The notes under the pieces: model-generated
The model's input: only the letters and a program-made list of their open reading frames with translations
Told to the model about the DNA's origin: nothing
Databases searched by the model: none
Shown: piece by piece, positions 36,256-36,395 of the stretch
Numbering within the stretch: position 1 is the first letter of the stretch
How the letters are laid out: every line of letters begins with the position of its first letter
NCBI GenBank assembly: GCA_009702045.1
Contig: WLIV01000008.1
Span: forward strand, 62,001 to 126,000
Reading direction: 5' to 3'
Source: Actinomycetota bacterium
GTDB lineage: Bacteria; Actinomycetota; Acidimicrobiia; Acidimicrobiales; Ilumatobacteraceae
Length of the DNA: 64,000 nucleotides
Translations under genes and position numbers: made by a program

Positions 36256-36290
36256 AAAAAGCAAGAAGCCCCGGCCGGTTCGGCAGGGGC
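36256..36290 (-). terminator. leuA attenuator terminator
   Basis: Reading the minus strand, GCCCC (36290-36286), one mismatch, GCCG, loop AAC, CGGC, one mismatch, GGGGC (to 36268): nine base pairs, followed by TTCTTGCTTTTT (36267-36256). A textbook intrinsic terminator placed between the leader peptide and leuA, 46 bases before the leuA ATG. Confidence 0.8.
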
Positions 36291-36294
36291 AGGC

Positions 36295-36323
36295 GGGCAA
36301 GCGCGAGTACGCGACGCTTGCCC
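36295..36323 (-). promoter_or_regulatory. Hairpin starting on the leader stop codon (leuA attenuator)
   Basis: Perfect nine-base stem GGGCAAGCG (36323-36315) with CGCTTGCCC (36303-36295). Its first base is the G of the leader TAG stop, so a ribosome on the Leu codons or at the stop must block it. I take it as the early hairpin of an attenuation switch; the antiterminator pairing is not resolved by eye. Confidence 0.65.
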
Positions 36324-36358
36324 TACATAAGCAGAAGGAGGCCGTGTCGGGTGCGCAT
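36323..36358 (-). CDS. leuL: Leucine leader peptide of leuA
   Basis: Eleven-residue [14 protein letters not shown], too short for ordinary gene finding. Four consecutive Leu codons (CTC CTT CTG CTT, 36340-36329) precede a final Met and TAG. Translation stalls here when leucyl-tRNA is scarce, changing the fold of the RNA ahead of leuA. There is no Shine-Dalgarno; the ATG lies eight bases after a -10 hexamer, so the transcript probably begins at the ATG. Four Leu in a row just before a terminator and leuA leaves little doubt about the role. Confidence 0.85.
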
Positions 36359-36366
36359 GGGAATGC

Positions 36367-36395
36367 AGTCTGCCGAGCGCGGCCGCATTTGTCAA
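36367..36395 (-). promoter_or_regulatory. leuA leader promoter
   Basis: TTGACA (36395-36390), 17-base spacer, CAGACT (36372-36367), then eight bases to the leader ATG. The -35 is a perfect consensus; the -10 keeps the key A and T positions. It begins five bases after the stop of the histidine kinase gene. Confidence 0.7.

Follow-up and report, generated by a model that had tools for sequence, protein, structure and literature searches.

Introduction

In most Actinobacteria, leuA is preceded by the LEU element, which combines a leader peptide carrying a leucine run with a pseudoknot and with pairing between the Leu codons and the Shine-Dalgarno sequence, has no terminator and comes with no clear mechanism (Seliverstov et al. 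2005, PMC1262725). The element analysed here lies upstream of leuA in the window, by which we mean the whole 64,000-nucleotide stretch of Ilumatobacteraceae DNA under study. It shares with the LEU element the phylum, the gene and a short Leu-run leader ORF upstream of leuA that is followed by a GC-rich hairpin. However, unlike the LEU element as described (PMC1262725), it has a hairpin placed directly against the stop codon and, after that, an intrinsic terminator. An earlier note on this DNA remarked that leucine attenuators at leuA are known in actinobacteria; this holds in that the LEU element exists, but that is a different element, with a pseudoknot and without a terminator.

Classical leader-peptide attenuators, in which terminator and antiterminator overlap, have been described for leuS of Streptomyces (PMC1262725) and for ilvBNC and ilvB1 of Corynebacterium and Mycobacterium tuberculosis (PMC11857589, PMC10272879, PMC13236596). 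Like the classical leu, trp and ilv attenuators, the element discussed here joins a leader peptide rich in sensor codons to an intrinsic terminator at a branched-chain gene, and control is predicted to act on transcription. It differs from them in that its two hairpins stand side by side without overlap and no alternative pairing is conserved. A further mode is antitermination by ribosome proximity, known from E. coli pyrBI and from the tR2 test system, where the coupled ribosome comes up to the terminator directly (PMC4824070). In our proposal too, the outcome at the terminator would depend on how near a ribosome stands to its base, except that the ribosome would be a stalled one and the distance would be reduced by the folding of a hairpin.

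Leaderless short ORFs with runs of Cys codons reportedly act as attenuators before biosynthesis genes in mycobacteria (work attributed to Canestrari, 2020). A later paper that cites this work describes the mycobacterial poly-Cys attenuators as translation attenuation (PMC13236596). The likeness to our element consists of a short ORF, a run of codons for one amino acid and a biosynthesis gene next in line, with a leaderless ORF probable here as well; the mycobacterial ORFs, by contrast, serve Cys genes.

Our analysis of the sequence indicates that the leuA element is very likely a ribosome-controlled transcription attenuator. The comparisons support its assignment to the broad kind of ribosome-mediated attenuators, and neither to the trp-type three-segment devices, as tested here, nor to the LEU element as described.

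Results

Parts of the leuA element are listed in Table 1, together with those of a second element found in the same window. The earlier note had placed a TTGACA-17 promoter, an 11-residue leader with four Leu codons, a hairpin and a 9-bp terminator in front of leuA, and re-reading the sequence confirms these parts and their coordinates, all on the minus strand. It had also called the element too short for routine gene calling, with which the leader ORFs agree. The leuA leader reads ATG CGC ACC CGA CAC GGC CTC CTT CTG CTT ATG TAG. The first base in the 5' arm of hairpin A is the final G of TAG, and 4 nt 3' of hairpin A stands terminator B, GCCCC-t-GCCG/CGGC-c-GGGGC, with 9 bp and one mismatch. 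The leuA ATG at 36210 lies 45 nt past the end of the U-rich tract. The leader RNA folds at -47.2 kcal/mol, compared with -39.6 kcal/mol for shuffles (z = -2.3). The loop of hairpin A occupies 36314-36304, and its motif C-N-C-A-T-A is frequent in leuA and ilvB elements despite a freely varying stem. Further upstream, a sensor histidine kinase gene (36400-38265, minus strand) ends 5 nt ahead of the -35 hexamer; in relatives its place is taken by other genes.

Table 1. Features of the two predicted attenuators in the window and of the genes that they precede.
Feature	Coordinates	Strand	Basis or remark
-35 hexamer TTGACA	36395-36390	minus	sequence; identical in 12/12 same-genus leuA leaders tested
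-10 hexamer CAGACT	36372-36367	minus	17-nt spacer from -35; 8 nt ahead of leader ATG
leuA leader ORF	36358-36323	minus	11 codons and TAG; stop 36325-36323
leuA-leader sensor codons CTC CTT CTG CTT (4 Leu)	36340-36329	minus	codon reading and conservation
Hairpin A of leuA element, GGGCAAGCG/CGCTTGCCC, 9 bp	36323-36295	minus	folding and compensatory changes
Hairpin B of leuA element, intrinsic terminator stem	36290-36268	minus	folding and compensatory changes
U-rich tract TTCTTGCTTTTT of leuA element	36267-36256	minus	sequence; kept in relatives
leuA, 2-isopropylmalate synthase, 566 aa	34510..36210	minus	NF002991.1 and TIGR00970.1, above their cut-offs
Promoter-like TTGACG-17-TTGAAT of predicted Ile-type attenuator	57866..57894	+	by eye
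Ile-type leader ORF, VTSSARHCALTSIIIIR then stop, GTG start	57901..57954	+	sequence and comparison with relatives
Hairpin A of predicted Ile-type attenuator, 12 bp, begins in stop codon	57953..57983	+	sequence and comparison with relatives
Hairpin B of predicted Ile-type attenuator, terminator stem GAGCCGCCC/GGGCGGCTC, with U-rich tail	57986..58019	+	sequence and comparison with relatives
cimA, citramalate synthase (isoleucine pathway)	58035..59639	+	TIGR00977.1, 690 bits, cut-off 450

A generic scan for consensus promoters and terminators listed neither the promoter nor the terminator of the leuA element, the former because CAGACT fits the consensus at only 3 of 6 positions and the latter because the stem is split, and the case for the element therefore rests on conservation. 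Rfam 15, searched at gathering and relaxed thresholds, gave no family relevant to the element and none above the gathering cut-off; a weak match to Hrs1 was rejected since it lies on the wrong strand.

Upstream regions of leuA were collected from the same genus, family and order and from named genomes, including Ilumatobacteraceae and other Acidimicrobiia, and the order of parts is common to all these groups. A detector that asks only for a stop codon with a hairpin directly against it, another hairpin next to the first and a tail rich in T was positive in 42/44 acidimicrobial regions, as against 0/64 non-acidimicrobial leuA regions and 0/870 shuffled regions. At one locus (L018) the element is absent, but the match downstream looks truncated or non-orthologous; at another (L019) Leu run and hairpin are present, while the U-tract falls short of the detector's setting. 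The leuA leaders are short, with 3-4 Leu codons, usually one further codon and then the stop. Between species the run varies synonymously (for example CTC CTT CTG CTT versus CTC CTG TTG CTT), and in the closest relative CTG is changed to TTG, although within the genus conservation of the run owes partly to shared ancestry. Both stems show compensatory changes: 9/14 consensus pairs of hairpins A and B carry changes on both sides, with such changes in 6/9 pairs of hairpin A. Paired cells amount to 95.5%, compared with 84.0% in column shuffles, and pair counts also exceed those of slid controls.

A covariance model trained on the leuA elements (R1) matches at least 135/247 genomes and at least 90/124 genera of Acidimicrobiia, counts that are lower bounds owing to strict filters, and 33/297 genomes drawn from the phylum. 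On a sample drawn from the 64 non-acidimicrobial leuA regions it achieved no convincing recognition; many of the fetched non-acidimicrobial regions show LEU-type leaders. A second R1 match in this genome (contig C4, E 8.8) was judged spurious.

Could the leader nevertheless be a chance ORF lying beside the ordinary terminator of the histidine kinase gene? That gene, which is likewise on the minus strand, has its stop a short way upstream (at 36400), an 11-codon ORF is unremarkable by itself, and the generic scans were blank. However, relatives have different genes upstream and yet keep the element at leuA, a TTGACA promoter lies in between, and neither the detector counts nor a codon identity that tracks the pathway (see below) suits such an origin. 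We regard this reading as extremely improbable, and indeed as already refuted by sequence conservation: the leader-hairpin-terminator layout at leuA is not a chance arrangement.

Additional R1 matches adjoin the upstream side of ilvB, citramalate synthase, leuB (one case) and type-1 leuA, and these led to the second element in the window, at 57866-58019 on the plus strand directly upstream of cimA. Its layout is identical to that of the leuA element, with the run ATC ATC ATC ATT at 57937-57948 followed by CGC TAG. A third member in the same genome (L239, G000:C10) stands upstream of the acetolactate synthase gene ilvB and has a leader ending in ALVVVIV and a stop, a hairpin loop CCCACATA and a terminator. 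Among relatives, the layout was found in 19/29 cimA regions scanned and in 26/30 ilvB regions; upstream of trpE, hisG and ilvD in relatives the detector found none in 44 loci. In other classes of the phylum the same layout, with Leu runs, occurs before the leucyl-tRNA synthetase gene leuS (L288, L289, L295, L296), and R1 matches in other lineages precede leuS, leuA and ilvB with fitting codons. A joint covariance model of the leuA, ilvB and cimA families was dropped because the joint alignment misaligned the stems.

The leuB gene of the window presents another picture, as no leader peptide was found upstream of it. A long inverted repeat, GAAGGCGTAACCGCA to TGCGGTTACGCCTTC, at 53457-53496 upstream of this gene is probably the terminator of the gene that precedes leuB. 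In another acidimicrobial genome (L161, G106:C2) a leader QIVVIP with its stop lies before leuB and places Ile/Val codons at a leucine-pathway gene.

Sensor codons match the pathway. Counted over the four codons preceding the last leader codon, 130/144 are Leu in the leuA leaders, 67/76 are Ile in the cimA leaders and 96/104 are Val, Leu or Ile in the ilvB leaders. Rare synonymous codons are preferred in these runs: CTT makes up 41% of Leu codons in runs and about 4% among window genes, GTA 72% and 4%, and ATT 36% and 8%, respectively. An aligned Leu run among leuA orthologues, which the earlier note had proposed as a check, is thus strongly present, and its leucine-attenuator reading gains support from the Leu count, the synonymous changes and the conserved terminator.

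The match between codons and pathway points to a translating ribosome as the reader; neither an ORF arisen by chance nor a metabolite that binds the RNA would give rise to it. One may still ask whether a protein or small molecule, and not the ribosome, reads hairpin A, whose loop often contains CNCATA, and so governs the terminator. In its favour, leuA and ilvB elements have this loop motif in common, the search for a sequence that pairs with the loop found none, and a protein ligand has been proposed for the LEU element (PMC1262725). We consider such a ligand very improbable: the motif is mostly absent from cimA elements, and a ligand would leave unexplained why rare, pathway-matched sensor codons stand one codon before the stop.

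Turning to the spacing of a ribosome-read element, in 81 elements hairpin A starts between -3 and +3 nt from the last base of the stop codon, and 0-6 nt separate B from A. From the stop codon to B there are 25-38 nt, and at least 27 nt in 78/81. With A folded and a ribosome on the sensor codons, the slack is 6-23 nt. Since A starts at the stop codon, its 5' arm must lie beneath a ribosome that has reached the stop, but is largely or wholly accessible when the ribosome is held on the sensor codons. In 40/44 leaders with a scored promoter the gap between -10 and start codon is 6-10 nt, a spacing from which we infer that the leader ORF is probably leaderless.

Is there an antiterminator? In the classical three-segment scheme, a stalled ribosome would permit an antiterminator that excludes the terminator, and A would merely be a pause hairpin. 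Characterised amino-acid attenuators work in this way, ilvBNC of Corynebacterium and ilvB1 of M. tuberculosis included, and hairpin A would suit the position of the 1:2 pause hairpin. However, hairpin A does not overlap terminator B, and the predicted fold of the stalled state keeps A and B together in 81/81 elements, where the best structure lacking B costs at least 12.8 kcal/mol (median 18.5). For coevolution, duplex energies of own partners were compared with those of partners swapped between species (2000 permutations). Only A5:A3 and B5:B3 coevolve (0/2000 permutations); A5:B5 is marginally better for own partners (p about 0.01), and for Leu run:B3, A3:B3, the A loop and the tail pairings, A5:tail included, own partners do no better than swapped ones. 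Moreover, the Ile and Val codon runs are unable to form the pairing supposed between the Leu run and B3. Across the 81 folded elements and the swapped-partner comparison, no conserved alternative pairing or competing antiterminator was found, and we judge the three-segment scheme unlikely. The hairpin that the earlier note saw between leader and terminator is thus present, but it is no classical antiterminator, as it stands clear of B and folds alongside it. A candidate pseudoknot, in which CACATA of the A loop would pair with TATGTA at the end of the leader, was rejected, since it shows no coevolution and the loop motif stays when the ATG codon changes.

The same data bear on translational control of the LEU kind, in which the Leu run would pair with the leuA Shine-Dalgarno sequence, a stalled ribosome would free the latter, and the terminator would be constitutive. 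The run CCTCCTTCTT resembles the 16S anti-Shine-Dalgarno sequence and can pair with an SD-like sequence, and this is the mode described for the LEU element of Actinomycetia (PMC1262725). Yet this pairing, a feature of the LEU element, shows no own-over-swapped excess here (-7.36 for own partners, -7.20 for swapped), and it would be impossible for runs of Ile or Val codons. In addition, a strong conserved terminator sits between the run and leuA, and the layout is missing from the 64 non-acidimicrobial regions, many of which have LEU-type leaders. We therefore hold control of this kind to be improbable.

Discussion

How, then, could leucine supply govern leuA through two hairpins that do not exclude each other? 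Because B is predicted to form thermodynamically even in the stalled state, control must be kinetic or steric; and as starvation is when a gene for biosynthesis ought to be expressed, the effect of A on B must be antagonistic. The leader, its codon run, the hairpins, their geometry and the pathway-matched codons are read from the sequence, and from them we infer translation, stalling, the sign of control and a proximity step, as follows.

The leuA mRNA would start on the leader ATG or no more than a few nt away from it, and the 11-residue peptide would be made from a leaderless message. When leucine is plentiful, the ribosome would reach the stop codon and, by covering the 5' arm of A, would prevent A from folding; B, the terminator, which lies at a distance of 35 nt from the stop codon, would then fold and transcription would halt ahead of leuA. 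When leucine is short, the ribosome would stall at the Leu codons, A would fold and leuA would be transcribed. Folded A would take up about 29 nt of slack, so that A and the stalled ribosome together abut the base of B and keep B from closing inside RNA polymerase. As a whole, the attenuator together with these working steps seems to us a likely explanation, whereas the step by which folded A hinders B through proximity is put forward tentatively.

The proximity step takes its cue from a study in E. coli, which found a terminator to be repressed when a ribosome stands no more than 27 nt away and which cites the closing of the last 2-3 bp as essential (PMC4824070). Set against this threshold, which was measured on a different terminator and in E. 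coli, the distance of 25-38 nt from stop codon to B suggests that a ribosome at the stop stands just far enough away for B to form, while the 6-23 nt left with A folded would fall inside the range; hence the proposal. There is a counter-view, namely that adjacent hairpins or hairpin clusters can aid termination (PMC8355165).

More generally, the recurrence of the layout raises the possibility, which we would not yet call probable, of a two-hairpin attenuator without an antiterminator that serves as one interchangeable module, its sensor codons swapped to suit the gene: leuA, ilvB or cimA throughout Acidimicrobiia, and leuS, leuA or ilvB in further lineages of the actinobacteria. In such a module the ribosome would decide only whether A folds, and A would act on B by sterics rather than by competing pairs.

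A full-text literature search for Acidimicrobiia in combination with attenuator, leader peptide or leuA found no paper; subscription papers lay outside its scope, and an earlier description is possible. The Acidimicrobiia form a large class, most of it uncultured, for which our analysis predicts a branched-chain amino-acid regulon built from one modular RNA device whose specificity would be set by about four codons. If the two-hairpin reading is true, attenuation would be possible without an antiterminator, which may open the way to a broader search for such switches and to their design.
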